A program made the translations under genes and the position numbers. Source: Acidimicrobiia bacterium (lineage in GTDB: Bacteria; Actinomycetota; Acidimicrobiia; Spongiisociales; UBA5794). Taken from it: 56,103 bases of DNA. The notes under the pieces are model-generated. The model saw only the letters and a list, made by a program, of their open reading frames with translations, had not been told where the DNA came from and searched no databases. Location: contig JARFRN010000149.1 in NCBI GenBank assembly GCA_029287195.1, positions 1-56,103 of the forward strand. Reading direction: 5' to 3'. Numbering within the stretch: the stretch's first letter is position 1; each line of letters begins with the position of its first letter. Shown piece after piece: positions 1-56,103 of this stretch.

Positions 1-1397
1 CCAATCGGAAGTCCGGCCGCGGTCCAATGAGTCGGAACCGACATGGCCGGCACGCCACTGAAGTTCGCCACGGGTGTGAATGCGACGTAGTCGAAGAGCT
101 GTTCGACGATTTCGTCCCATTTCGCTTCTTGATCGATCTGACCGAGCCGGAACGGAGGCCGGCCTAGAACGGGGGTGAGCAACACATCGTATTCGTTGAG
201 GAACTGGGCGAATTGGTGTGACACCTGCTGGAGCTGGACCTTGGCCGCCTCCAGCCCGGCTGCGGTGCGGCGCCGTGAGTGGTCGGCCAGCTCCCAGGTG
301 AACGGTTCAAACGCGTCCATGCCCGACTTCCGCTTGTCGAGCCGGGCAATCAGCCTCATGGTGCGCCAGTCACCGAGTGTGCGCCGAAGCATTCTGGCGG
401 ACCGCCGCTGCGAAGCCTCTGCAAGGATGAGCGTGAAGATTTGCTCGGCAAGCGATTCCCACACTGCAAGGAAGGCTTCTGCGAGTGACTGCCCGTCTGC
501 CTCGGGGAGAGCTTCAACAACTTCGTGCCCCGCTTCCTCCATGACTTTGGCAGCCGATTCGACCGCAGCGGCGCAGTCGGGGTCGACCCGTCGCCCCCGG
601 AAGTCCCGTGTGGAAAACGCGACACGCTGCGGCGCCGGGTCGGTTTCGACCGCCGACCGGAAAGAACGCTGGGGCGGTGAAACATGGTAGGCCCCGCCGG
701 GTACCTCTCCGTGTGTCAGGTCGAGCAGCGCCGCGCTGTCGCGCACCGAGCGGCTGACCGCAAGATCGGTCGAGACGTAGTCGGCTGCCGAGGCCGGGTA
801 GCGGGGCATGCGCCCCCGGCTCGGCTTGAGCCCGAACACGCCGCAGATCGATGCCGGAATGCGAATCGATCCCCCACCGTCGCTGGCATGTGCCATCGGG
901 ACGATGCCCGCGGCAACTGCGGCCGCCGCTCCCCCGCTCGAACCTCCCGTCGAGTGCTCGACGCTCCACGGGTTCTTGGTAGGGCCGTGGAGTACGGGCT
1001 CGGTCGTCGGCAGCAATCCGAATTCGGGCGAATTGGTACGCCCAATCGGAATGAACCCCGCCGCAAGGACACGCCGGATGTACTCATCTGTTACATCCGG
1101 CCTGAAGTCACGGAAGAACACCGAACCAAACGTGGCGACCTCACCCTCCACCAGTGCCAGATCCTTGATGAGAATCGGCACGCCACGGAACGGACCGGAA
1201 ACTCCCCCGTCGGCGGCCAGCCGCCGAGCCGAGTCATAGTGCTTTGCTATGACTGCATTGAGCTCGGGATTCAGCCGCTCCACTCGGTCGATGGCGGCTT
1301 CGACCAGCTCGGTCGGCGAGACCTCGCCTCGCGCAACGAGTTCGGCAAGGCCGACGGCATCATGGTCGGTGTATTCGGCAAATCCCGGTTTGGTCAT
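1..1397 (-). CDS. Amidase (amidase-signature family), C-terminus cut by window edge
   Basis: Amide-bond hydrolase of the amidase signature family, probably cytoplasmic; the substrate cannot be told from sequence. Reading leftward from ATG at 1397 there are at least 465 codons without a stop. The Ser-cisSer-Lys triad is visible: Lys78 in VPILIKDL, the GGSSGG motif at 151-156, and the nucleophile Ser177 in [12 protein letters not shown]. The visible end ([11 protein letters not shown]) is the usual C-terminal amidase motif, so only a short tail is missing. The start lies 6 nt after the stop of pckA on the same strand with no clear ribosome site, so translation probably depends on the upstream gene. 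GatA-type transamidation is less likely because no gatC or gatB is adjacent. The family is certain; the exact role is unknown. Confidence 0.9.
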
Positions 1398-1403
1398 CCG
1401 CTG

Positions 1404-2978
1404 CTACATCGTCGGTCCGGCGGTGGCGATCTCGTCACCTGCCTGGTCGGCGAACTCTTCGAAATTCTTCCGGAACCGACCGGCGAGCTCGGTCGCCTTG
1501 GCGTCATAGGCCGCGGGGTCGCCCCAGGTGCCCCGCGGGGCGAGCAACTCCGTCGGAATCCCCGGACACTCGGTGGGGATCGCAAGGCCGAACACCGGGT
1601 CGGTGGCGTATTCGACGTCGTCGAGATCGCCGTTGATGGCTGCCCGAATCACCGCCCGAGAGTGAGCGATCTTGAACCGCTCCCCAACACCGTAGGGTCC
1701 ACCGGTCCATCCTGTGTTGACGAGCCATACCTTGGAGCCGTGCTTTGCGATCTTCTCACCAAGCAGATCGGCATAGACGGTTGGATGTAATGGCATGAAG
1801 GGAGCCCCAAAACACGCAGAGAACGTAGCTTGCGGCTCCTTGACCCCGCGCTCCGTACCGGCAACCTTGGCCGTGTAGCCCGAGATGAAGTGGTACTTGG
1901 CCTGCTCAGGAGTCAGCCGCGAAATCGGAGGCAACACTCCAAAAGCATCTGCCGTGAGCATGAAGATGTGGTTGGGATGACCCGCCATGGAACCTTCGGC
2001 AATGTTGTCGATATGGGTGATTGGATAGGCCCCGCGAGTGTTCTCGGTCCCGGCCTCGACCAGGTTGAGGCGACGGGTGTCAGGATCGATGGTTACGTTC
2101 TCGAGGACGGTTCCGAACCGGCGTGTCGTCTGGTAAATCTCCGGCTCGGCCTCATCCGAGAGGCGGATCATCTTGGCGTAGCAACCACCCTCGTAGTTGA
2201 AGATGCCGGTGTCGCTCCAACCGAGCTCGTCATCTCCAATCAGTGCACGACCGGCCTCGGTCGACAGGGTCGTCTTGCCGGTCCCCGATAGGCCAAAGAA
2301 GACGGCGGAGTCGCCTTCCTCGCCGACGTTGGCGGACGAGTGCAAGCTGAGTACGCCTTGCAGTGGCATCAGGTAGTTCATCACAGTGAAAATCGACTTC
2401 TTGATTTCCCCGGCGTAGCTGGTGCCGCCGATCACGACCAATTTCTTGTCGAGGTTGAGCAGGATGAAGGCCTCACTTGCGGTGTGCTCATCTTCCGGAT
2501 CGGCCTGGAAATCCGGGCAATGGATGACCGTGTAGTCCGGCTGGAAGCTATCCAGAACCTCGCTATCGAACTCGCGGATAAACATGGTGCGGGCGAACAG
2601 GCTGTGCCAGGCATGCTCGCTGATGACCCGTACCTTGATGCGGTAGTTCGGGTCGGCGCCGGCATAAGCGTCCTGGATGAATATGTCCTTGTTCTGCAGG
2701 TACGAGCGCAATCCATAGAGCACCTTGTCGAAATCGACCGGCTCAAACGGCTTGTTGATCTTGCCCCACCAGATCTGTGCCTCGGTGCCGGGTTCTCTGA
2801 CTACGAATTTGTCGTTGGCGGAACGACCGGTGTACTTGCCGGTGCTGACTACTAGCGGTCCGAGATGCCCGACCATCGCTTCTTCGCGCCGGATCGCCTC
2901 CTCGTATAGCTCGGGGGTCGAAAGATTGTGATAGACCTTGCCGACATTCCTTAGATCGAGGCTGTTGATTTGCAGCAT
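1404..2978 (-). CDS. pckA: Phosphoenolpyruvate carboxykinase (ATP)
   Basis: Converts oxaloacetate plus ATP to phosphoenolpyruvate, ADP and CO2, the first committed step of gluconeogenesis. The 524-residue length fits the ATP-dependent family. Visible motifs: TGRSANDKF near 50-58, the lysine-containing GEIKKSIF near 190-197, LHSSANVGEEG near 212-222, the P-loop GLSGTGKTT at 229-237 and the metal-binding IGDDELGW at 247-254, where ATP-type enzymes usually have H for the L. Many actinobacteria use the GTP-type enzyme instead, so the ATP type is worth noting. The start is supported by GGGAGTGGGAA just before ATG. The amidase gene follows after 6 nt and is probably co-transcribed. Confidence 0.96.
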   Translation of the reverse strand: MLQINSLDLRNVGKVYHNLSTPELYEEAIRREEAMVGHLGPLVVSTGKYTGRSANDKFVVREPGTEAQIWWGKINKPFEPVDFDKVLYGLRSYLQNKDIFIQDAYAGADPNYRIKVRVISEHAWHSLFARTMFIREFDSEVLDSFQPDYTVIHCPDFQADPEDEHTASEAFILLNLDKKLVVIGGTSYAGEIKKSIFTVMNYLMPLQGVLSLHSSANVGEEGDSAVFFGLSGTGKTTLSTEAGRALIGDDELGWSDTGIFNYEGGCYAKMIRLSDEAEPEIYQTTRRFGTVLENVTIDPDTRRLNLVEAGTENTRGAYPITHIDNIAEGSMAGHPNHIFMLTADAFGVLPPISRLTPEQAKYHFISGYTAKVAGTERGVKEPQATFSACFGAPFMPLHPTVYADLLGEKIAKHGSKVWLVNTGWTGGPYGVGERFKIAHSRAVIRAAINGDLDDVEYATDPVFGLAIPTECPGIPTELLAPRGTWGDPAAYDAKATELAGRFRKNFEEFADQAGDEIATAGPTM

Positions 2979-34303: not shown

Positions 34304-34794
34304 GACACAGTCTCGGCCCTGGCTGAGAATGATCCTGCTATCTCGTTGTCCACGCGCAGAGATCTGCTTGGTAGCCGGACCTATCCCGTCTCGACCGTGT
34401 GGGCGATACTCGCGGTCCAGCGGCTCTTGAAGAAGCAGACTGAGAATGGTTCCTGGAGAGGACCCAGGCTGAGGCGACCGGTCTATCCAGCGAATCATTC
34501 CGACCTCCTCGCAACCTTCAAGCAGGTCCCCCCACTCGTTGAGCGATACAAGTTGACGAAAGCGTCGCCCGAGTTGCTGCTAGCGGCCGAGTGGCTGTTG
34601 GGTTTCCAGACCGACGAAGGCGACATTCGCGGTTCATCGGCAACCAGTACGCCACCTACTACACAGGGGCCGCCGACGGCATGTGGCACATAGTCAATGA
34701 CGGATCGGCCGAACGCCCGACGCCGACGAACCAGGAGCGTCGCGCATGGCCGACGCTCCGCGCATGCCGGGTGTTGAAGTCGCTCGCCGAGTAG
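34304..34794 (+). pseudogene. Broken prenyltransferase/squalene-cyclase-like repeat gene
   Basis: The frame from 34304 encodes DPAISLSTRRDLLGSRTYP, then an ILAVQRLLKKQTENGSW repeat, YPANHSDLLATFKQVP and AAEWLLGFQTDEGDIRG, which resembles alpha-toroid cyclase-like hypothetical proteins of actinobacteria. After GDIRG (about 34630) the frame is lost; one base appears missing, and the continuation FIGNQYATYYTGA is in another frame that ends at TAG 34792-34794 (TLRACRVLKSLAE). An in-frame TAA at 34301 removes the N-terminus and no start codon is evident. A central part also seems to be missing between TGA and DGMWH. Clearly decayed; identity moderate. Confidence 0.65.
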
Positions 34795-34853
34795 GGCGCA
34801 CCGTCACTGATTTTTCGGGGGCTGACAGCTCTCACAGTTCGTGCCAGCATGGC

Positions 34854-36635
34854 ATGGTGACCGAAGTCATAGGCGCGTTCATCCTCGGCGTGGTTTCCGC
34901 CTCGTCGCTCGGGCTCGGTGCCGCCACCGCCAGGATATGGAAGCCCACCAATTTCATTCTTGGCCTGCTGACGGCATTCGGCGCAGGAGCGCTGCTCTCG
35001 GCGGTGACCATCGACGTGGTTGCGCCCTCGGTTGAACGTGGAGAGACCGGCTGGCTTGCCATCGGTGCAGTAATCGGTGGCTTGGCATTCGAAGGTCTCA
35101 ATCGAACTGTCAATGCTCGAGGCGGATTCCTGCGCAAAGCCTCTACTTCGATCACATTCTTGCGCGACCGGGAGCAGCGGCGAATCCGAGAGGTGCTCGA
35201 CGATCTGGAACGCATCGACGTGTTCGATGGCCTCCCCGATCGCGAACTGGACGAGATCGCCCGCGCCTTCCGCTCCGAACGCATCGCCACCGGGGAGACG
35301 TTGTTCCGTCGCGGCGACGCCTGTGAGCACATCAACGTTCTCGCCGAGGGTGAGGTCACGTTGGCTACGCTGGAGGGTGACGTTCACCTCCATCCCCATC
35401 AGGCCTTCGGCTACCTGGCGTTCGTAAGCGGCACTGCTCACAGTTCGACGGCCACCGCACGGACCGAAGCCGAAGTGCTCCGTCTCAGCCGGAACCGCCT
35501 CCGCAGTGTCCTCGGAACCTGCCCTGAGCTGGCCGAACGGCTGAGAACCAAAGCGGCCGACGACGAACTCGTCGCATACGTCCGCAGCCACCATCCCGAA
35601 ATCGCCGAAACTCACATCACGTCCTGGATGGAAGCACTGCGCGGCGAGGGTATCGAACAGATGCCGCAATTGCTCGACCTCACGTCCACAACACCGCGAG
35701 AGCAATTAGCCGATCATCTGGCCGATGTAGAGGTCTTTCGCAAGCTGTCATCCGACCAGCTGGCGCAGGTAGTGGACCTGATGTTCCCGGAGGAGCACGA
35801 GAGCGGGTACGTGTTCTTCCGGCCCGGCGAGCCTTCGGACCGCTTGTATGTGCTGGCGGACGGAGACGTCGCCCTGATCGACGCGACCGGCGAGTCCGAT
35901 GTCAGCATCCTGCTTCAAGAAGGGGAGGAATTCGGGTTGCTGTCGTTCGTCACCGGCTTGCGCCACGCGGCGACGGCAATCGCCCAGAGCCCCAGCGAGG
36001 CTTGGGTCCTGCTCCGCTCCCACCTCGATGAGATGGTACGCAACGATCCCCAGCTGCGCGCTGCGGTCATCGACTTCCTCGAAAGCCCCCGGATTGCCCG
36101 CTACTTCAAGGAAGATCAAGGTCTGGACGCCGAGCAAGCCGGTAGCATCAAGCGGCGGGCTATCAGTGCGGTGCGGCGGGGCCGACTGGCCCCCACCGTG
36201 AGCGCCAAGCTGACTCAGGGTGCTCCGATTGCCATCTGGCTCGGTCTGCTCCTCGACGGGATTCCGGAGTCGCTGGTCATCGGCGCGACCGCCGGTGCAG
36301 TACGGGTCTCCTTCATCGCCGGCATCTTCCTTTCCAACTACCCGGAGGCCTTATCCAGTTCGGTGGGCATGCGGGAGCAAGAGTTCCGTTGGAAACACAT
36401 CGCGATGCTGTGGGGAAGCGTCATCTTGGTCACCGGTGTGGGTGCCGCCATCGGCAGCGTGGTATTCCAGAGCGCCCCTACTGAGGCTTTCGCCATCGTG
36501 GCAGGCATGGCGGCCGGGGCAATGCTCACAGTCATCACTCAGACGATGATGCCTGAGGCCCTCCACCGCTCAGGCGGCTTTGTAGGCCTGGCCGCCCTCG
36601 CCGGATTCCTGATCACAACCCTGGTCGGCGCTTGA
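34854..36635 (+). CDS. ZIP-like membrane protein with two cNMP-type domains inserted between its membrane halves
   Basis: About 593 aa. Three N-terminal helices (about 4-24, 33-56, 66-84) precede a cytoplasmic block with two cyclic-nucleotide-binding-like beta-barrels (about 122-225 and 291-400). About five more helices follow (455-592). The C-terminal half carries ZIP-transporter-like Pro-Glu motifs: LLLDGIPESL in the first helix, SNYPEAL in the next and MMPEALHRS near the end; the usual HNxPEG histidine is Asp469. The phosphate-binding cassettes are degenerate: FGYLAFVSGTAHSST and FGLLSFVTGLRHAAT lack the canonical Glu and have His where Arg is expected. It may be a metal permease gated by these domains. 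The start is uncertain: GTG at 34857 fits a CAGCAT box 6 nt upstream. Confidence 0.78.
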   Translation: MVTEVIGAFILGVVSASSLGLGAATARIWKPTNFILGLLTAFGAGALLSAVTIDVVAPSVERGETGWLAIGAVIGGLAFEGLNRTVNARGGFLRKASTSITFLRDREQRRIREVLDDLERIDVFDGLPDRELDEIARAFRSERIATGETLFRRGDACEHINVLAEGEVTLATLEGDVHLHPHQAFGYLAFVSGTAHSSTATARTEAEVLRLSRNRLRSVLGTCPELAERLRTKAADDELVAYVRSHHPEIAETHITSWMEALRGEGIEQMPQLLDLTSTTPREQLADHLADVEVFRKLSSDQLAQVVDLMFPEEHESGYVFFRPGEPSDRLYVLADGDVALIDATGESDVSILLQEGEEFGLLSFVTGLRHAATAIAQSPSEAWVLLRSHLDEMVRNDPQLRAAVIDFLESPRIARYFKEDQGLDAEQAGSIKRRAISAVRRGRLAPTVSAKLTQGAPIAIWLGLLLDGIPESLVIGATAGAVRVSFIAGIFLSNYPEALSSSVGMREQEFRWKHIAMLWGSVILVTGVGAAIGSVVFQSAPTEAFAIVAGMAAGAMLTVITQTMMPEALHRSGGFVGLAALAGFLITTLVGA

Positions 36636-48121: not shown

Positions 48122-48560
48122 ATGGATTCTTCGCAACAGCGCCGCCGCTTCGACGAGCTGTACGCACAGAACTTCCAAGACGTCCTCGCCTACTGCATGC
48201 GACGCACCGGGGCTGATGATGCTTTTGCCGCAGCCAACGATGTCTTTGCTATTGCCTGACGGAGAGTCGACGATGTGCCGATTGGCAACGCTGCACGACC
48301 TGGCTATTCGTGGTCGCCCGGCGGGTGCCGTATCGGCAACGGCGTGGCATACACCGTTTTCATCAGCTGGTGGAGAAAGTCGGATCCATTCGGCAATCCG
48401 AAGGGCCTAACCCGGAGAACCTGATTGTGCAGCGGGAGGAATACGACGGCGTCTTGCAGGCGGCATCACGACTCAGCCGGAGCGATCGCGAGGTTTTCAG
48501 CCTGGCGGCGTGGGAAGGCCTCCCCCACCGCGATATCTCCGTACAAGAGCCGCCAATCTC
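48122..48560 (+). pseudogene. Decayed ECF-type RNA polymerase sigma factor gene
   Basis: From ATG 48122 (GGAAGG upstream) the frame encodes RRRFDELYAQNFQDVLAYCM and ADDAFAAANDVFAIA, the region 2 helices of an ECF sigma factor, then stops at TGA 48257-48259 exactly where the family has Trp (usually VAWRR). Downstream text still encodes RRVDDVPIGN, then a shifted frame continues with FVVARRVPYRQRRGI (around 48305) and LSRSDREVFSLAAWEGLPH, the start of region 4. The remaining recognition helix is lost. One nonsense change plus at least two frame breaks indicate a pseudogene. A stop-to-Trp recoding is not credible because TGA terminates other genes here. Confidence 0.8.
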
Positions 48561-48606
48561 CCCGACCACGTGTGGCGATCGGCACAGCTCGAGGTGGTTG
48601 CGCCCT

Positions 48607-48631
48607 AGCCGGCCGGCGAAGCGGGCCGGCT
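48607..48631. terminator. Hairpin upstream of the cNMP gene
   Basis: AGCCGGCC pairs with GGCCGGCT (8 bp) around a 9-nt loop, about 76 nt before the cNMP gene. It may be the former terminator of the sigma-factor gene or a leader hairpin. No T-run follows. Confidence 0.4.
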
Positions 48632-48707
48632 CCTGTACGAGCCCATCCCGATCGCTAGTGTTGCGCCAGGCTACACGTTGGGACGGATCGTGCTTTCAGA
48701 GAACGCA

Positions 48708-49199
48708 ATGAATGTTCTGCGAACCACGTCGCTGTTCGCCGGGTTCAATGAAGAACAACTGGAGATGGTGCCCAAGGTCGGGCGGGAGCGCAACTTCGAG
48801 TCCGGGGAGATGATCGTGGAGGAGGGATCGACGGGAGCCCGATCGCTCTGGCTGGTGCTGGAGGGCGAGGTCGACATCGTCGTTGCCGGAGAGGTTCTTC
48901 GCTCCCAGGGGCCGGGCACCCACTTCGGCGAGCTTGCGCTGCTGGCTGAAGCGCCGCGGTCGGCCGATGTTGTCGCCCGCACCGAGACGGTCGCCCTCGA
49001 GCTATCTCGGAGCCACTTACACGGGCTCATAAGCGCCAACCCGCAGGTGGCCCTCGACATGCTCGCCGAGTTGGCAACCAGGCTGCGGGACGTTACTGAA
49101 GCGCTCGCAGAGAAGACCGCCGTCGAATCGGCCCATGCGGCTCCATCCGATCCCTACTACCTCGGCCCCATCGAGTACGGGGTCGGCGGACGGGACTAG
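48708..49199 (+). CDS. Single-domain cyclic-nucleotide-binding protein
   Basis: A 163-aa protein consisting of one cNMP-binding beta-barrel (about 1-125) and a short helical tail. The phosphate-binding cassette HFGELALLAEAPRSADV has the canonical Glu and Arg, so cAMP binding is likely. There is no helix-turn-helix as in CRP, so it is not an ordinary DNA-binding regulator; it could act as a free receptor subunit. The tail ends DPYYLGPIEYGVGGRD, with no recognised motif. The start is uncertain: an upstream TTG (48678) is open in the same frame. Its stop overlaps that of the convergent cyclase gene by 4 bp, beside a likely source of its ligand. Confidence 0.85.
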   Translation: MNVLRTTSLFAGFNEEQLEMVPKVGRERNFESGEMIVEEGSTGARSLWLVLEGEVDIVVAGEVLRSQGPGTHFGELALLAEAPRSADVVARTETVALELSRSHLHGLISANPQVALDMLAELATRLRDVTEALAEKTAVESAHAAPSDPYYLGPIEYGVGGRD

Positions 49200-51844
49200 T
49201 CGCCGCCGGAATCTGCCAGCGCCAGCGCAACCGCGTCGGTCACGGACATGGTCCGGCCTTCCGCATAGACTGCTCCCAACTCACCGTCGAGCAGGCCGAG
49301 GCTGTCGGGATCGATGTGTGACGTTGCACTGATTCCTACTCTGACCAGATCTACGCCGGTCTCGTCGCGCAGGCCGGTCATGGCTCCGGCGAGCCGCGCA
49401 CCCAGTACCGAGTCACCCCGTTCAATTGCCAGGTAGGCAAAAGCGGCGAGATACATGACGACGGCGGAGACATCGGAGATGTCGAACAACCGCATGCCCC
49501 GCTGGAGATGGCGTCTTGCACTCTCGTACTCCCCGAGCCTGACCAGCACCTCACCTTGGGTATAGAGGGCCCAGCCCAATCCAAATCGATCATCGAGCCG
49601 CTCGAACGCGGCAACACTCTCGTCGAAGCAATGCCGTGCCTCGACCAATTCCCCAGACGCGGCCCAGGCATCGCCCAGGCCCCACCTCGCAGCCGCCATG
49701 CCCGCCTCATCGCCGAGATCGGCAAACATCGCGTGCGCCTCACCGAAGAGCGCCCGAGCGCGGGCGGCATCACCCTCGTAGTTGCGGGCAAACGCCAGGT
49801 TGTACAAGGCATAGGCGATCGGTCCCGGTTCACCGAGGATCCGGAACAAGCCGAGAGCCTCCTCGTAGAACTCCCGGGCCGACTCCATGTCACCGGACCA
49901 ATAGGCAACGCCACCCGCTGCTTCCAAAGCTTTCGCCCGTGACGCGATCGAGGCCCCTTCGATCAGGAGAAGGTTCTGGAGGAGGCCCCCGGCTGAGAAC
50001 AGCAGCCCCCGCATGTGATAGAAGCGCCACAGCGACGCCGCCATCTCGAAGGCCATGTCGATTTCGTCGTGCTCCACGGCCCACTGCTGCGCTTTTCGCA
50101 GGTTGTCGTGGTCGGCCGACAGTTTGCTCAGCCATTCACTCGCTCCCGAACCGGTCAGGTTGGGTTCGGCGGCTGCACTGAGGCGGGCATAGGCCCGCGC
50201 ATGACGTTCGGCGGTTTCCGCCATCCGGCCGGATACTGCGAGCTTTCGTTCAGCGAACTGCCGAACCACCTCGAGCATCCGAAATCGGACGTCCCCGGCA
50301 GCCTCAGATCGAACGACGAGGCTGTGCTCGACCAGAGTTTCCAACCCTTGGAGCGGCTCGTTGCCGAGCTCGGGACCGGCAACAGCGGAGATCTGTTCCA
50401 GCCCCGCTCCCCCTGCAAATACGGCCATCGCTGCCAGCAATGTCTGCGCCGGCTCCGGCAGCAGGTCGTAGCTCCACGCGATCACATGGTCCATGGTCCG
50501 CTGCCGGGCGGGCAGATCCCGGCTGCCCTCGCCTGCCATCACGTGCTCGAGATTCTCGAGGATGGCTCGAGGAGACAGAGTTCTGACCCGTGATGCGGCC
50601 AGTTCGATGGCAAGCGGCAACCCGTCGAGTCGCGCGACCAGCTCGGCCACAATCTGAGCTGCCCGATCGTCCAGTACAAAGGATGGGCGCACCGACTTGG
50701 CCCGATCGGCAAAGAGGGCAACAGAGTCGACTTCCATCAGCGCCGCCGCAGAGGCTGCTCCGAGATCAGGCGTGGCCAGCGGCGGGATCGGCATCTCCTG
50801 CTCACCGGCCAACCGCAGCGGAGTGCGGGAAGTGGCGATGATCTTCGTGTCGATCGATGCCTGCAGGATTCGTAGTGCAATCGGTGCCGCCGCAATCAGG
50901 TGCTCGAAATTGTCCAACACCAGCAGGAGGTTGCGTCGAGCAACGTAGGCAAGCAGGTGATCCTCCGTTGGAGTGGATGCCTGCGCAACGTGATCAGAGA
51001 ACGATTCGAGGATTTTGGCGGGAACTTCTTCCGGATCGGCGATGCCCGCCAGAGCAACGAAGTGCGCCCCGTCGGCGAAGTCGGTGGAGACCATACGCGC
51101 AAGCTCGAGCGCAAGACGAGACTTGCCGGTGCCTCCCGGGCCGGTCAGCGTGAGGAGCCGGGAGCCGGCCAGCAGCGACTGCGCCTGCCGCACCTCGTCC
51201 CGGCGTCCAACAAAGGAACTGAGCTGGGTCGGCAGATTGTCGCGCACGGCACTGAGCGAGCGCGGAGCCGCCTGATTGTCGGGCAACCCGGCGATCACCA
51301 GCCGGAAAAGCCGCACCGGAGTGTCGAGATCTCTGAGCACATGCTCGCCCAAGTCACGGGCGACGACTCCCGGCGGCAAGGAGTGCTCGGCCAGGCTCAT
51401 CGTGGCCGCAGATGCCAGAACCTGCCCGCCGTGCCCTGCGGCCGAGATGCGCGCGGCTCGATGCACCTCGATGCCTACGTAGTCATCTCCACCGACGGCA
51501 CCGATGCCGGTGTGCAGCCCCATCCTGACTTGCACCTTCTCTCCACCGGCGAATTCGTGATCGGCCAACGCCCGCTGCGCTTCCACTGCCGCCGCTACCG
51601 CGGCTGGGGCCGCCGCGAACACGGCGAAGAACGAATCCCCCTCTGTTCGAATCGCTATTCCACCGGTGTCTTCGATGGCCTTGCGTACCAGTTCGTTGTG
51701 AGCCTCGATGATGGCCCGAGAGTTGCCGCCCGCTCGCTGTAGGAGACGAGTCGACCCCTCGATGTCGGTGAACAGGAACGTAACGGTTCCGGTCGGAAGG
51801 TTCGTTGTGGCGTCGATGGCGAACTCCCCCAGCGATGCGCTCAT
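49196..51844 (-). CDS. Class III adenylate cyclase fused to an NB-ARC-like ATPase and TPR region
   Basis: An 882-aa signalling protein. The cyclase domain (about 18-185) has the metal-binding Asp D27 (FLFTDIEGST) and D70 (RTEGDSFF), and the region GIEVHRAARISA with R132; position 128 is His where many family members have Asn, a form common in actinobacteria. It should make cAMP from ATP. An AAA/NB-ARC ATPase follows, with P-loop LTGPGGTGKSR (233-243), VLDNFEHL as Walker B, GLPLAIELAASRV and a MalT/AfsR-like helical part. The C-terminal third (about 600-882) is a run of TPR-like helices (YALYNLAFARNYEGD; GLGWALYTQGEVLVRLGE) that probably senses a partner. Only 37 bp separate its start from the divergent RR-flavoprotein gene. 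Confidence 0.92.
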   Translation of the reverse strand: MSASLGEFAIDATTNLPTGTVTFLFTDIEGSTRLLQRAGGNSRAIIEAHNELVRKAIEDTGGIAIRTEGDSFFAVFAAAPAAVAAAVEAQRALADHEFAGGEKVQVRMGLHTGIGAVGGDDYVGIEVHRAARISAAGHGGQVLASAATMSLAEHSLPPGVVARDLGEHVLRDLDTPVRLFRLVIAGLPDNQAAPRSLSAVRDNLPTQLSSFVGRRDEVRQAQSLLAGSRLLTLTGPGGTGKSRLALELARMVSTDFADGAHFVALAGIADPEEVPAKILESFSDHVAQASTPTEDHLLAYVARRNLLLVLDNFEHLIAAAPIALRILQASIDTKIIATSRTPLRLAGEQEMPIPPLATPDLGAASAAALMEVDSVALFADRAKSVRPSFVLDDRAAQIVAELVARLDGLPLAIELAASRVRTLSPRAILENLEHVMAGEGSRDLPARQRTMDHVIAWSYDLLPEPAQTLLAAMAVFAGGAGLEQISAVAGPELGNEPLQGLETLVEHSLVVRSEAAGDVRFRMLEVVRQFAERKLAVSGRMAETAERHARAYARLSAAAEPNLTGSGASEWLSKLSADHDNLRKAQQWAVEHDEIDMAFEMAASLWRFYHMRGLLFSAGGLLQNLLLIEGASIASRAKALEAAGGVAYWSGDMESAREFYEEALGLFRILGEPGPIAYALYNLAFARNYEGDAARARALFGEAHAMFADLGDEAGMAAARWGLGDAWAASGELVEARHCFDESVAAFERLDDRFGLGWALYTQGEVLVRLGEYESARRHLQRGMRLFDISDVSAVVMYLAAFAYLAIERGDSVLGARLAGAMTGLRDETGVDLVRVGISATSHIDPDSLGLLDGELGAVYAEGRTMSVTDAVALALADSGGD

Positions 51845-51881
51845 ACAATAGGCAGGCTACGCCGAGCACCCGGAGAACTCT

Positions 51882-53537
51882 TTGCACCCAGTAATCCTCG
51901 CCGTTGACGATGATCATCTGGTCCTTCGTGCACTCGAACGTGACCTCAGGGAGAGTTTCGGGCAGAGGTACCGTGTTGTCACGGCTGCAACCGGAAGTGA
52001 CGCGCTCGATGCCCTTGCCGAGCTGAAGGCTCGGGGCGCCGGCGTGGCACTTCTCATTGCAGACCAGCGGATGCCGCATATGACCGGCATCGAGTTTCTG
52101 GCCGCAGCGGTGGAGATGGAGTCGAACGCCAAGAGAGTCTTGCTCACGGCCTACGCAGACACAGGGGTTGCGATCGAGGCGATCAACTCGATCAACCTCG
52201 ACCACTATCTGCTGAAACCCTGGGATCCGCCCGAAGAGGGCCTGATTCCCGTACTGGAGGGCTTGCTAGACGACTGGCAAGCAGGCGCCGAGGTTTCGTA
52301 CGAGGGCATCCGGGTCGCCGGAACCATGTGGTCGGCGCAATCCCATGAGGTCAAGGAGTTCCTGGCCCGCAACCGCATCCCATACCGATGGCTCGATATC
52401 GAGCGAGACCGAGCAGCCCGGGCTCTCGTCGAACGGAAAGCCGCGCAACGTCCGCTCCCAATCGTGTTCCTTCCCGACGGGGAGGTTATTGCAGGACCAA
52501 CGCCTCGCCTACTTGCCGAGAGGGCCGGGCTACAGACTGAGGCGGCAGACACCACGTATGACCTGATAATCATCGGCGCCGGACCGGCAGGACTTGCCGC
52601 CGCGGTCAACGCCTCTGCCGAGGGAATGCACACACTGCTCGTCGAAAAATCGGCCACCGGCGGCCAGGCGGGCACTAGTTCCCGGATCGAGAACTACCTT
52701 GGCTTTCCTTCCGGTATCAGCGGCAGCGAGTTGGCGGAACGAGCGACGGTCCAGGCACGACGTCTCGGTACCGAGATCCTGCTGGCCCGTGAAGTCGTCT
52801 CGCTTCGGGTAGGCGACACGTACCGGTACGTACAACTCGATGATGGTACGGAACTCGCCGCAAAGACGGTCCTCATCGCCACCGGGGTGTCGGTTCGAGA
52901 ACTCGAAGCTCCGGGGGTTGCCAGACTCGGCGGAGCCGGGATCTACTACGGCGCTGCCTTGACCGAAGCCGCCAATTACGTCGACCGCCCGGTTGTCATC
53001 GTCGGCGGTGCCAATTCCGCCGGTCAGGCGGCGATTCTCTATGCGCGCCACGCCGGCGTTGTGTCCCTGGTGGCCCGGGCGCGGACTCTGGAGCAAGGCA
53101 TGTCCCGCTATCTCGTCGACCAGATCAAGCACGTTCCGAACATCGAAGTGAGGCTCCGGACGGAGGTCGTCGCGGCCCACGGGACGGATCGGTTGGAGGC
53201 AGTATCGGTAGTCGACAAGGATCGCAACACCGTGGAGAGACTTCCGGCTGCGGCGATGGCCATCTTCATCGGTGCTCGCCCCCACACGGAGTTTGCGGCA
53301 GCCACAGTAGAGCGCAGCGGAGCAGGTTCGATCCTGACCGGACTCGATCTGATCCGTGATGGCCGACGACCGAGCGGGTGGCCGCTCAAGCGAGACCCAC
53401 TCCACCTCGAGACGAGCGTTCCCGGTATCTTCGCCGCAGGAGATGTCCGCTTCGGATCCCAAGCGCGCGTCGGCTCTGCTGTCGGATCAGGAGGTGTCGC
53501 GGTTGGCCTGATTCGGGAGTACCTGAAGACGGTCTAG
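51882..53537 (+). CDS. Cysteine-free receiver-thioredoxin-like-TrxR fusion flavoprotein
   Basis: A 551-aa protein in three parts. Receiver domain 1-130: D10/D11 (AVDDDH), phosphoacceptor D61 (LIADQRMP), T89 and K112 (YLLKPW). Glutaredoxin/thioredoxin-like part 140-212: TMWSAQSHEVKEFLARNRIP aligns with a usual WCPDC site, but both Cys are Ser. TrxR-like part 225-551: FAD loop IIGAGPAG (231-237), GGQAGTSSRIENYLGFP, the second dinucleotide loop VGGANSAGQAA and the FAD end-motif GIFAAGDVR. The TrxR CxxC is replaced by GAGIYYGAA. The whole chain contains no Cys. It is expected to bind FAD and NAD(P)H and be phosphorylated, but not to do thiol chemistry. TTG 51882 with GGAG 7 nt upstream is the start. 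Confidence 0.9.
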   Translation: MHPVILAVDDDHLVLRALERDLRESFGQRYRVVTAATGSDALDALAELKARGAGVALLIADQRMPHMTGIEFLAAAVEMESNAKRVLLTAYADTGVAIEAINSINLDHYLLKPWDPPEEGLIPVLEGLLDDWQAGAEVSYEGIRVAGTMWSAQSHEVKEFLARNRIPYRWLDIERDRAARALVERKAAQRPLPIVFLPDGEVIAGPTPRLLAERAGLQTEAADTTYDLIIIGAGPAGLAAAVNASAEGMHTLLVEKSATGGQAGTSSRIENYLGFPSGISGSELAERATVQARRLGTEILLAREVVSLRVGDTYRYVQLDDGTELAAKTVLIATGVSVRELEAPGVARLGGAGIYYGAALTEAANYVDRPVVIVGGANSAGQAAILYARHAGVVSLVARARTLEQGMSRYLVDQIKHVPNIEVRLRTEVVAAHGTDRLEAVSVVDKDRNTVERLPAAAMAIFIGARPHTEFAAATVERSGAGSILTGLDLIRDGRRPSGWPLKRDPLHLETSVPGIFAAGDVRFGSQARVGSAVGSGGVAVGLIREYLKTV

Positions 53538-53593
53538 GAGATTCGCGCACAGTGCCGCCGCACACACCGACGGTCGGTTGTCGCGCCTCCGCG

Positions 53594-55015
53594 CTATGGA
53601 ACCGCACCGTCGGGTTCGGGGTTGCTTGGCCGGCACGGCAAGGTGACCCTGAAGGCGGTGCGGCCGGGTTCGGACTCGACCGAGATGTCCCCTCCATGGC
53701 GATTCACAACGATCCCGTAGGTGATGTCTAGACCGAGGCCGGTTCCGCTGCCCGGCGGCTTTGTCGTGAAGAAGGCATCGAAGACCCGGCCCACCACGTC
53801 TGCGGGGATGCCCGGTCCGTTGTCCTCGACTGCAACGGTCACGGCATTGTCCGAGGGGATGACACGTAGAAGTATCACCGGGTTGGGCACCGCTGCCTCG
53901 AGCAGTGCATCAGCGGCGTTGTCAATGAGGTTCGTCCATACCTGATTCAGTTCCGCTGCGTAGGCCTGGATGGATTGTGGTTGCCCCTGGTAGTCGCGTC
54001 GCACCTCGATGCTTCCCAGTTTGTGTTTGAGGATGAGCAGCGTGTTGTCGAGCCCCTCTCTCACGTCGACCTCTTGGACCTCGGCCTGGTCCAAGTAGGA
54101 ATATGACTTCAAAGCGCCCACAATCGCCGAGAGTCGCTCTGCCCCTTCTTCGATCTCCCTGACGAGCGATGATGTATCCGACATGGAGCAGAACGCTTCT
54201 ATGGCCAACATCGCATCTTCGGCTCTCAGACCGGCCAGGGCCGCTTCGAGGTCGGCCGGGGCAATCCCTGCATCCGCCAGCATCGCTGCGCGGCTCCAGG
54301 GTTCGCTGACACCCATCCGGCCGATCAACGTTTCGAACTCGGTCTCACGGTCTGCGCGTTCGAGAGCACCGAGCGGCTCGGGACGTTGCCGGGCGGACTC
54401 CAATAGTGCGTCGACCCGGGCCCTGGCTCCCGGCTCGAGGCCGGCGCCTCGCAGATCACCCATCCGCCCCGCGAAAGCTTCCATTGTGCGGGCCAGCTGT
54501 GAGGATCCACGGCGCACTGCGGCCGCCGGATTGTTCATCTCGTGGGCCAGTCCGGCAGTCAGAGTCCCGATCTGCGCCATCCGCTCCGACTGCCGCAGAC
54601 TCGACTCGGTTTCCCTCCATCGAGACAGCAGGACACCGAACAGGGCCCGCGCTGCAGTGGCCGAGGTTTGCAGAAGTTCGTCCATTTGTTGCTTCGGGAT
54701 GGTCACAAATCTCGAGTCGACGCGTGCCCGCACCGTTGCCATTCTTGGAGCAGCGTCGAGCAGTGCCATCTCCCCGATGATTTCGCCTTGCGTGCGCACT
54801 GCCAGCAAGAGCTCCCGGGGTCCGGTGGTCTTTACCACCTCGACCTCGCCGCTGATTATGACGCATGCTCGATCGCCCTCATCGCCCTCACGAAAAACGA
54901 TCGAGCCTGCGGAAGTCTCCTCCTCGTAGGCCCCGGCCGCCAGGAGTTCTAGATCCTGGTCCGACAGGTCTGCCAACAGCGGAATCGCCCGCAACGCATC
55001 TCGCATCACTCTCAC
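53594..55015 (-). CDS. Cyclic-nucleotide-binding sensor histidine kinase
   Basis: A 473-aa soluble kinase. An N-terminal cNMP domain (about 8-125) has the cassette IIGEMALLDAAPRMATV with Glu82 and Arg91, so it should bind cAMP or a related nucleotide. The dimerisation/phosphoacceptor domain has H158 in GLAHEMNNPAAAV, with a long helical insertion (about 175-300) before the ATPase domain. N-box WTNLIDNAADALLEA, G1 VEDNGPGIP, F-box FFTTK and G2 GTGLGL are intact. There are no membrane segments. GTG start overlaps the stop of the TrxR-like gene as GTGA, so the two are co-translated. Its response regulator may be the nearby receiver-TrxR fusion. Confidence 0.93.
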   Translation of the reverse strand: MRVMRDALRAIPLLADLSDQDLELLAAGAYEEETSAGSIVFREGDEGDRACVIISGEVEVVKTTGPRELLLAVRTQGEIIGEMALLDAAPRMATVRARVDSRFVTIPKQQMDELLQTSATAARALFGVLLSRWRETESSLRQSERMAQIGTLTAGLAHEMNNPAAAVRRGSSQLARTMEAFAGRMGDLRGAGLEPGARARVDALLESARQRPEPLGALERADRETEFETLIGRMGVSEPWSRAAMLADAGIAPADLEAALAGLRAEDAMLAIEAFCSMSDTSSLVREIEEGAERLSAIVGALKSYSYLDQAEVQEVDVREGLDNTLLILKHKLGSIEVRRDYQGQPQSIQAYAAELNQVWTNLIDNAADALLEAAVPNPVILLRVIPSDNAVTVAVEDNGPGIPADVVGRVFDAFFTTKPPGSGTGLGLDITYGIVVNRHGGDISVESEPGRTAFRVTLPCRPSNPEPDGAVP

Positions 55016-56103
55016 ACCGACTCGAGATATTTGTGAATCATCGAGATGGCAACAGAACCCTGTCCTACCGCCGACGCGACGCGCCGCACCACCCCTTCAC
55101 GTACATCCCCCGCGGCAAAGATTCCCGGCACACTCGTCTCTTGCATGTAGGGGTCCCGATCGAGCTTCCAGGCAGGTCGCTTCCCTTTGGTGAAGATGTC
55201 GGGACCCGTCAGGATGAAACCGCGGTCATCCGTCTCGACCAGTCCCTTCACAAAGCTCGAGTGTGGAACGGCACCAACAAAGATGAAGATCGCCGAAGCG
55301 TCTCGCTCGGTTTCGTCACCCGTCGCTTCGTTGCGCAGCTTTATCTTCTCGACAATGGATTCGCCGGCGACCTCGATCACTCGAGTGTTCACCAGAACCT
55401 CGATGTTGCCGGTTGAGTTGATCTGATCGACCAGGTACTGGGACATCTTGGCCTCGAGCGAACCGCCCCGAGCTATCAAGGTCACATTCGCAGCGTGTTT
55501 GCTGAACATGATCGCCGCCTGGCCGGCGGAATTGGCGGCCCCAATCACATAGACGTGGCCTCCCGCATACGTTGCAGCCTCGCTGGGTGCAGCTCCGTAG
55601 TAGACGCCGGCGCCCTCGAACCGGTCGTATCCGGGAACGTCCAACTTGCGGACCGTCATCCCGCTCGCGATCAGAAGCGCATGACAGCGAAGCTCGGACC
55701 CGTCGGCAAGGGTCACGATCTTGACTGTGTCATCAACGCTGATCGCCGTCACCTCAGCAGCCGTGATCAATTCTGCGCCGAGTCGTGACGCCTGGGCCGC
55801 AGCACGGCGCGCCAGATCACCGCCGCTGACTCCCGTCGGGAATCCCAGATAGTTTTCGATTCGGGCGCTGGTGCCCGCCTGACCACCCGGGGCATCCTTC
55901 TCGAGTAGAGCCACTCGAAGACCCTCGGAGGCCCCGTAAACCGCTCCGGCCAATCCGGCCGGGCCACCGCCGATGATGACGACGTCGTAGAACGGACTAA
56001 CGGCCTCGGTGTGCAGGCCGATCTCTCCGGCCAGGGTGCGGCGATCTGGCTTGACCAGTGGGTCTCGACCTGGAATCAGCACAACCGGAATGGAACCCTC
56101 GGT
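55012..56103 (-). CDS. TrxR-like FAD oxidoreductase without CxxC, N-terminus cut by window edge
   Basis: Leftward gene entering from the right edge; about 364 residues are visible. The TrxR-like fold starts DVVIIGGGPAGLAGAVYG (FAD loop), followed by GGQAGTSARIENYLGFPTG, the second loop YVIGAANSAGQAAIMF and the FAD motif GIFAAGDVREG. The site of the redox CxxC reads GAGVYYGAA, and only one Cys remains (ELRCHAL). Before the first loop, the edge residues TEGSIPVVLIPGRDPLVKP match the end of the thioredoxin-like part of the fusion at 51882-53537, so the full protein probably has the same extra N-terminal domains. It is translationally coupled to the cNMP-histidine kinase. A paralogue of the other flavoprotein. 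Confidence 0.9.
   Translation of the reverse strand, partial: TEGSIPVVLIPGRDPLVKPDRRTLAGEIGLHTEAVSPFYDVVIIGGGPAGLAGAVYGASEGLRVALLEKDAPGGQAGTSARIENYLGFPTGVSGGDLARRAAAQASRLGAELITAAEVTAISVDDTVKIVTLADGSELRCHALLIASGMTVRKLDVPGYDRFEGAGVYYGAAPSEAATYAGGHVYVIGAANSAGQAAIMFSKHAANVTLIARGGSLEAKMSQYLVDQINSTGNIEVLVNTRVIEVAGESIVEKIKLRNEATGDETERDASAIFIFVGAVPHSSFVKGLVETDDRGFILTGPDIFTKGKRPAWKLDRDPYMQETSVPGIFAAGDVREGVVRRVASAVGQGSVAISMIHKYLESV

Follow-up and report, generated by a model that had tools for sequence, protein, structure and literature searches.

The 56,103-nucleotide window analysed here is the whole of contig C197 (JARFRN010000149.1) of an Acidimicrobiia bacterium whose genome (GCA_029287195.1; 305 contigs, 3.59 Mb) is 83% complete. 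Its last 8 kb encode a histidine kinase with a cyclic-nucleotide-binding (cNMP) domain, flanked by two flavoproteins, REC-TrxR1 and REC-TrxR2. Both flavoproteins are built from a response-regulator receiver (REC) domain, a glutaredoxin-like (Grx-like) domain and a thioredoxin reductase-like (TrxR-like) domain. Kinase and REC-TrxR genes are paired far beyond chance and this pairing is conserved across many phyla. With a probability of about one in two, the locus is read as a two-component system with an enzyme output, in which a cyclic AMP (cAMP)-type input would be passed on by phosphotransfer from the kinase to REC-TrxR. The initial annotation of this sequence had proposed a larger unit in which cAMP made by an adjacent class III cyclase activates the kinase, with a small cNMP protein as a second receptor.

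A conserved pair of histidine kinase and REC-TrxR flavoprotein

The survey comprised 108 loci, 28 from the same order and 80 from named contigs, two pairs of them representing the same contig. The 80 contigs span Actinomycetota, Chloroflexota, Cyanobacteria, Acidobacteriota, Bacteroidota and others, and one is labelled as archaeal. In 86 of the 108 loci the REC-TrxR gene has a kinase gene of the window kinase's family no more than 600 bp away, and in 83 of the 86 both genes are on one strand; where at least 2.5 kb of sequence is available on each side, a kinase is found this close in 68 of 81 loci. Receiver residues Asp61, Asp9/10 and Thr89 are kept in every receiver-bearing sequence and Lys112 in all but one. 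On the kinase side His158 and Glu159 are present in all 90 proteins compared, and the N, G1 and G2 boxes are invariant or nearly so. By its H, N, G1 and G2 boxes the window protein is classed as a histidine kinase, and REC-TrxR has the sequence features of a response regulator with an enzymatic (non-DNA-binding) output and an adjoining histidine kinase. The adjacency, the common strand and the invariant His and Asp support the predicted link from kinase to receiver.

The initial annotation had named a lack of conservation in relatives as grounds for refutation; this outcome applies to the cyclase and the small cNMP protein but not to the kinase/flavoprotein pair. The proposed four-gene set is not conserved as one unit, the best relatives of the cyclase lying mostly on contigs other than that of the flavoprotein, and a conserved four-gene neighbourhood was rejected. 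Cyclase and small cNMP protein fall outside the kinase/REC-TrxR unit.

The kinase departs from the usual form in its dimerization/phosphoacceptor domain. The phosphorylatable His and the N box are separated by 208 residues in the window kinase (median 212 in the 90 proteins), and this stretch is some 100 residues shorter in textbook kinases; the Pfam HisKA model gives no score. The predicted structure (mean predicted local distance difference test score, pLDDT, 88) has a first helix of 72 residues, four short helices and then the second helix. The extra segment (about residues 190–265) is conserved in the 90 relatives and carries the motif DRE.E...W. We read this as a helical insert of about 100 residues, at which the flavoprotein may dock. 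Contig C166 of the same genome (locus L073, 2286–5080) encodes another kinase of the family. Its cNMP domain is degenerate, its N terminus has an apparent receiver-like region, and a single-domain receiver follows it.

The flavoproteins have the low-Mr thioredoxin reductase fold and conserved FAD and NAD(P)H Rossmann motifs (GxGPAG and GGANSAGQA), and lack the redox-active CxxC, as the initial annotation had noted for both window proteins. YYGAAxTEA stands in its place in all 110 sequences surveyed. In the same set the CPYC position of the Grx-like domain reads WSPxSH, so that the CPYC/CxxS signature of glutaredoxins is absent. TIGR01292 scored 197 and 240 bits, below its curated cutoff of 343 bits. 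Because the cysteine pair of thioredoxin reductase and the cysteines of glutaredoxin are both lost, the usual reduction of thioredoxin is not expected and the flavoprotein, judged by its residues, cannot act as a normal thioredoxin reductase. The model of REC-TrxR1 (pLDDT 89) was compared with Lactococcus lactis thioredoxin reductase: the template-modelling (TM) score was 0.92 (root-mean-square deviation 2.4 Å) against the flavin-reducing form (PDB entry 5mh4) and 0.63 against the flavin-oxidizing form (5mjk). This match is weak evidence for the conformation and is consistent with an enzyme that would need only NAD(P)H-to-FAD transfer.

The two flavoproteins differ in descent. In the tree, REC-TrxR2 groups with the protein of L056, a locus of the same order (support 0.968), within an order clade (0.996), and REC-TrxR1 groups with Chloroflexota sequences (0.859). 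The tree rules out REC-TrxR1 as a recent duplicate of REC-TrxR2; it was probably acquired laterally. It may then be an orphan, the kinase serving only REC-TrxR2, with REC-TrxR1 controlled by another kinase (for example that on C166) or through the promoter region that it has in common with the cyclase. Besides the tree, its convergent position outside the kinase operon and the second family kinase on C166 favour this, but REC-TrxR1 lies only 56 bp from the kinase gene, and both receivers retain all catalytic residues and have similar first-helix residues. We consider the orphan status of REC-TrxR1 possible, a little short of an even chance.

Cyclase, small cNMP protein and kinase input

The window cyclase was aligned with Ma1120, a cyclase of solved structure that is known to be active. 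The window protein retains both the metal Asp residues and the substrate Asp, as well as the transition-state Arg, and has Arg in place of the substrate Lys and His in place of the Asn; Ma1120 itself has Ala at the Asn position. Because of these two replacements, activity of the window cyclase is uncertain. Its best relatives (44–47% identity) lie on contigs other than that of REC-TrxR in six genomes, and only L058 has a related cyclase (41% identity) directly upstream of REC-TrxR, with the same Lys and Asn replacements. The cyclase is a loose neighbour, which could plausibly supply cAMP but is not indispensable for this.

The small cNMP protein, which has an intact phosphate cassette (FGELALLAEAPRSADV), belongs to a separate recurrent pairing of cyclase and cNMP protein. 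Such proteins adjoin a cyclase-ATPase gene in all three cases in this genome (C41, C118 and window 48708–51844), in three orientations, and stand beside a cyclase in nine of 40 cases in relatives from the order (1.15 expected). On this ground the small cNMP protein was rejected as part of the flavoprotein unit. The same pairing, together with the replacements common to the window cyclase and its L058 relative, would suit a STAND-type regulator with a weak or inactive cyclase domain, the regulator and the small cNMP protein making up a unit by themselves. The retained metal Asp, substrate Asp and transition-state Arg argue for a working cyclase instead, as does the Ala of Ma1120, and we hold the regulator alternative as tentative, with odds clearly below even.

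For the kinase, cAMP is a plausible input within the order. Its cassette (GEMALLDAAPRMATV) matches GE..L....PR.A with Glu and Arg present; the initial annotation had recognized these residues in both cNMP domains, and both assignments were confirmed. Glu and Arg are intact in all 22 readable kinases of the order and also in a few from Chloroflexota. A cyclase lies within 5 kb in five of the 28 loci from the order, where 1.07 would be expected from 337 cyclase domains in 74.7 Mb (P about 0.005). If contig C295 (see below) is taken as adjacent, four of the 17 cyclase matches of the genome, one of them apparently frame-shifted, fall within 20.7 kb around the unit. Cyclase neighbours were found only with cassettes called intact (six of 28 versus none of 59; Fisher test, 7 × 10⁻⁴).

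Several observations weigh against this assignment. The Fisher test is confounded by phylogeny and by unequal numbers of cyclases per genome, and the pattern-based cassette calls are doubtful for L111, L126 and L134. No cyclase lies within 5 kb in 23 of the 28 loci from the order. The window cassette itself has Met after the Arg, where Ser, Thr or Ala is usual. The cassette is degenerate in the kinases of Streptomyces, Cyanobacteria, Acidobacteriota and Bacteroidota, and a PAS-like input region is present in five loci, in L075 by Pfam and in L078, L079, L081 and L094 by similar sequence. It follows from the degenerate cassettes and PAS-like regions that cAMP cannot be the general input and that input is lineage-specific. 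The pathway from cAMP through the phosphorelay to the flavoprotein, as first proposed, is thus plausible in this order and does not extend to all phyla.

The pair could also be genuine while its cNMP domain serves for dimerization or senses another ligand, nearby cyclases being coincidental in cyclase-rich genomes. The pair does persist in most phyla despite a degenerate cassette, or with the PAS-like regions just described, and its commonest further neighbours are not cyclases but zf-UBP genes (41 loci, often directly 3′ of the kinase). This explanation is rather unlikely in view of the uniformly intact cassettes of the order and the roughly fivefold enrichment of cyclases near the unit there.

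Under the preferred reading, a two-component system with cAMP-type input, we infer the following scheme. The soluble kinase would bind a cyclic nucleotide, most likely cAMP, through its N-terminal cNMP domain, and this would shift its balance between autokinase and phosphatase. The phosphoryl group would pass from His158 to the conserved receiver Asp of REC-TrxR2, and possibly of REC-TrxR1, and receiver phosphorylation would make the FAD/NAD(P)H flavoprotein fused to it change in activity. NAD(P)H might then donate electrons via FAD to an acceptor other than thioredoxin, or the flavoprotein might serve as a redox readout. A wider formulation, in which a second-messenger phosphorelay switches a cysteine-free TrxR-like flavoenzyme and lineages have exchanged the kinase input (cAMP, degenerate CRP-like or PAS) while keeping insert and output, may hold, at slightly less than even odds.

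A zf-UBP domain is fused to the kinase in L128, and a degenerate one to a cyclase in L056. In L210 (C98, 729–5972) a SnoaL-zf-UBP protein is followed by a double-cyclase-ATPase-TPR protein; this pair and the UBP-SCO4226-cyclase fusion of L056 suggest a link between cyclases and UBP proteins. On a Tsukamurella plasmid the gene order is FAD-dependent oxidoreductase, ATP-binding protein, UBP-type zinc finger and S-(hydroxymethyl)mycothiol dehydrogenase, and on a Streptomyces plasmid a cNMP-TrxR fusion adjoins UBP, trxA and clpB. These neighbours hint at thiol or protein-stress physiology.

Gene arrangement and the split REC-TrxR2 gene

Open-reading-frame and domain analysis placed all five window genes where they had initially been annotated (Table 1), including the divergent starts of cyclase (ATG) and REC-TrxR1, which are 37 bp apart. 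The small cNMP gene overlaps the 3′ end of the cyclase gene by 4 bp. REC-TrxR1 starts with TTG, preceded by GGAG at good spacing, and converges with the kinase gene. A scan for sigma-70 promoters and terminators gave no signal exceeding chance.

Table 1. Genes of the locus in the window and on contig C295 of the same genome.
Feature	Position	Strand	Details
Small single-domain cNMP-binding protein	48708..49199	+	163 aa; PF00027 E 1.1e-18
Class III cyclase-like + NB-ARC/AAA-type ATPase + TPR protein	49196..51844	-	882 aa; PF00211 45.8 bits, NB-ARC, TPR_12
REC-TrxR1: REC + cysteine-free Grx-like + CxxC-less TrxR-like flavoprotein	51882..53537	+	551 aa; PF00072, PF00462 (weak), PF07992
cNMP-binding histidine kinase	53594..55015	-	473 aa; PF00027 + PF02518
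REC-TrxR2, C-terminal two thirds, cut by contig end	55012..56103	-	Frame open to last base of window
REC-TrxR2, N-terminal half (REC + Grx-like)	C295:1-543	-	Same genome
Calcineurin-like phosphoesterase	L044 (C295) 540-1583	-	PF00149 46.7 bits

The second flavoprotein had been described as a 356-residue protein without a receiver, GTGA-coupled to the kinase. The coupling stands, the kinase start overlapping the REC-TrxR2 stop; the absence of a receiver was a misreading, because the contig ends inside the gene. The frame begins near residue 191 of the REC-TrxR1 query and runs off the contig end. A genome search with REC-TrxR1 gave three matches only, the one further fragment lying at C295:1–534 on the minus strand, covering query residues 3–180 and running off the start of C295. 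The two partial matches are thus complementary halves, each reaching a contig end, and fit one REC–Grx-like–TrxR gene with about 8–10 residues lacking between them. The phosphoesterase gene comes before the N-terminal half on C295, its stop overlapping the GTG start of REC-TrxR2, and the order phosphoesterase, REC-TrxR, kinase is found in L047, L053, L054 and L056, all from relatives within the order. Because the halves complement each other and these four relatives show the same order, the operon is taken to comprise, in this order, the genes for phosphoesterase, REC-TrxR2 and cNMP-kinase; REC-TrxR1 faces it in convergent orientation. A weakness of this reconstruction is that the two contig ends have no overlapping bases, the join being supported by synteny and the two truncated genes; that C295 and C197 are not adjacent and carry separate broken genes is nevertheless very improbable, given the complementary halves and the identical order in the four relatives.

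The phosphoesterase has the motifs GD, GNHD and GHWH, and its PDB match is weak (2dxl, E = 8e-5). Because its first metal motif reads D-C-Q in place of D-x-H, a class III cAMP phosphodiesterase is no more than a candidate reading. Divergent from it on the plus strand of C295 (L044, 1415–2745) is a cyclase gene that is apparently frame-shifted over at least two frames, a pseudogene or an assembly error. Elsewhere in the window, 34746–36635 encodes a ZIP-like membrane protein (weak PF02535 match) with two inserted cNMP-binding domains.

Relation to known systems

The window cyclase has the domain order of the actinobacterial class III cyclase-ATPase-TPR proteins, such as those of the Rv0386 kind, and differs from them in its Lys-to-Arg and Asn-to-His replacements and in not being a fixed neighbour of the flavoprotein. 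REC-TrxR resembles low-Mr thioredoxin reductase and AhpF in fold and in its Rossmann motifs for FAD and NAD(P)H, and AhpF also in carrying a Trx-fold domain at the N terminus, but in all members examined the TrxR part lacks CxxC and the Grx-like part lacks CPYC. The RefSeq proteins named 'cyclic nucleotide-binding domain-containing thioredoxin-disulfide reductase' combine a related TrxR-like domain with one of cNMP type, and a UBP zinc finger gene adjoins the Streptomyces example. In these proteins the cNMP domain is part of the flavoprotein, whereas here it is on the kinase and would act, if at all, via phosphotransfer.

An archaeal census (J Bacteriol 2018, PMC5847659) mentions REC-thioredoxin reductase fusions under the term 'Mycobacterium-like combination'. 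No study of these fusions or of the kinase pair was found in the literature searched, which left out most subscription papers, the architecture appearing only in that census. The fusions are therefore already on record, and the kinase/REC-TrxR pair is widespread yet unstudied. The fusions and their kinases occur widely in bacteria and are on record for archaea too. The present locus offers a testable version with a candidate cAMP input and a kinase with an unusual conserved insert; once the acceptor reduced by the flavoprotein is identified, a family annotated only as 'FAD-dependent oxidoreductase' would be explained. Compared with the REC-TrxR response regulators of the census and of the RefSeq plasmid records (FAD-dependent oxidoreductase/ATP-binding protein/UBP), the window unit has no detected UBP gene and agrees in the order of REC and TrxR-like domains, the downstream kinase and the invariant receiver residues. 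It is set apart by the intact cAMP cassette of its kinase and by a genome with two REC-TrxR genes, one of them of another lineage.

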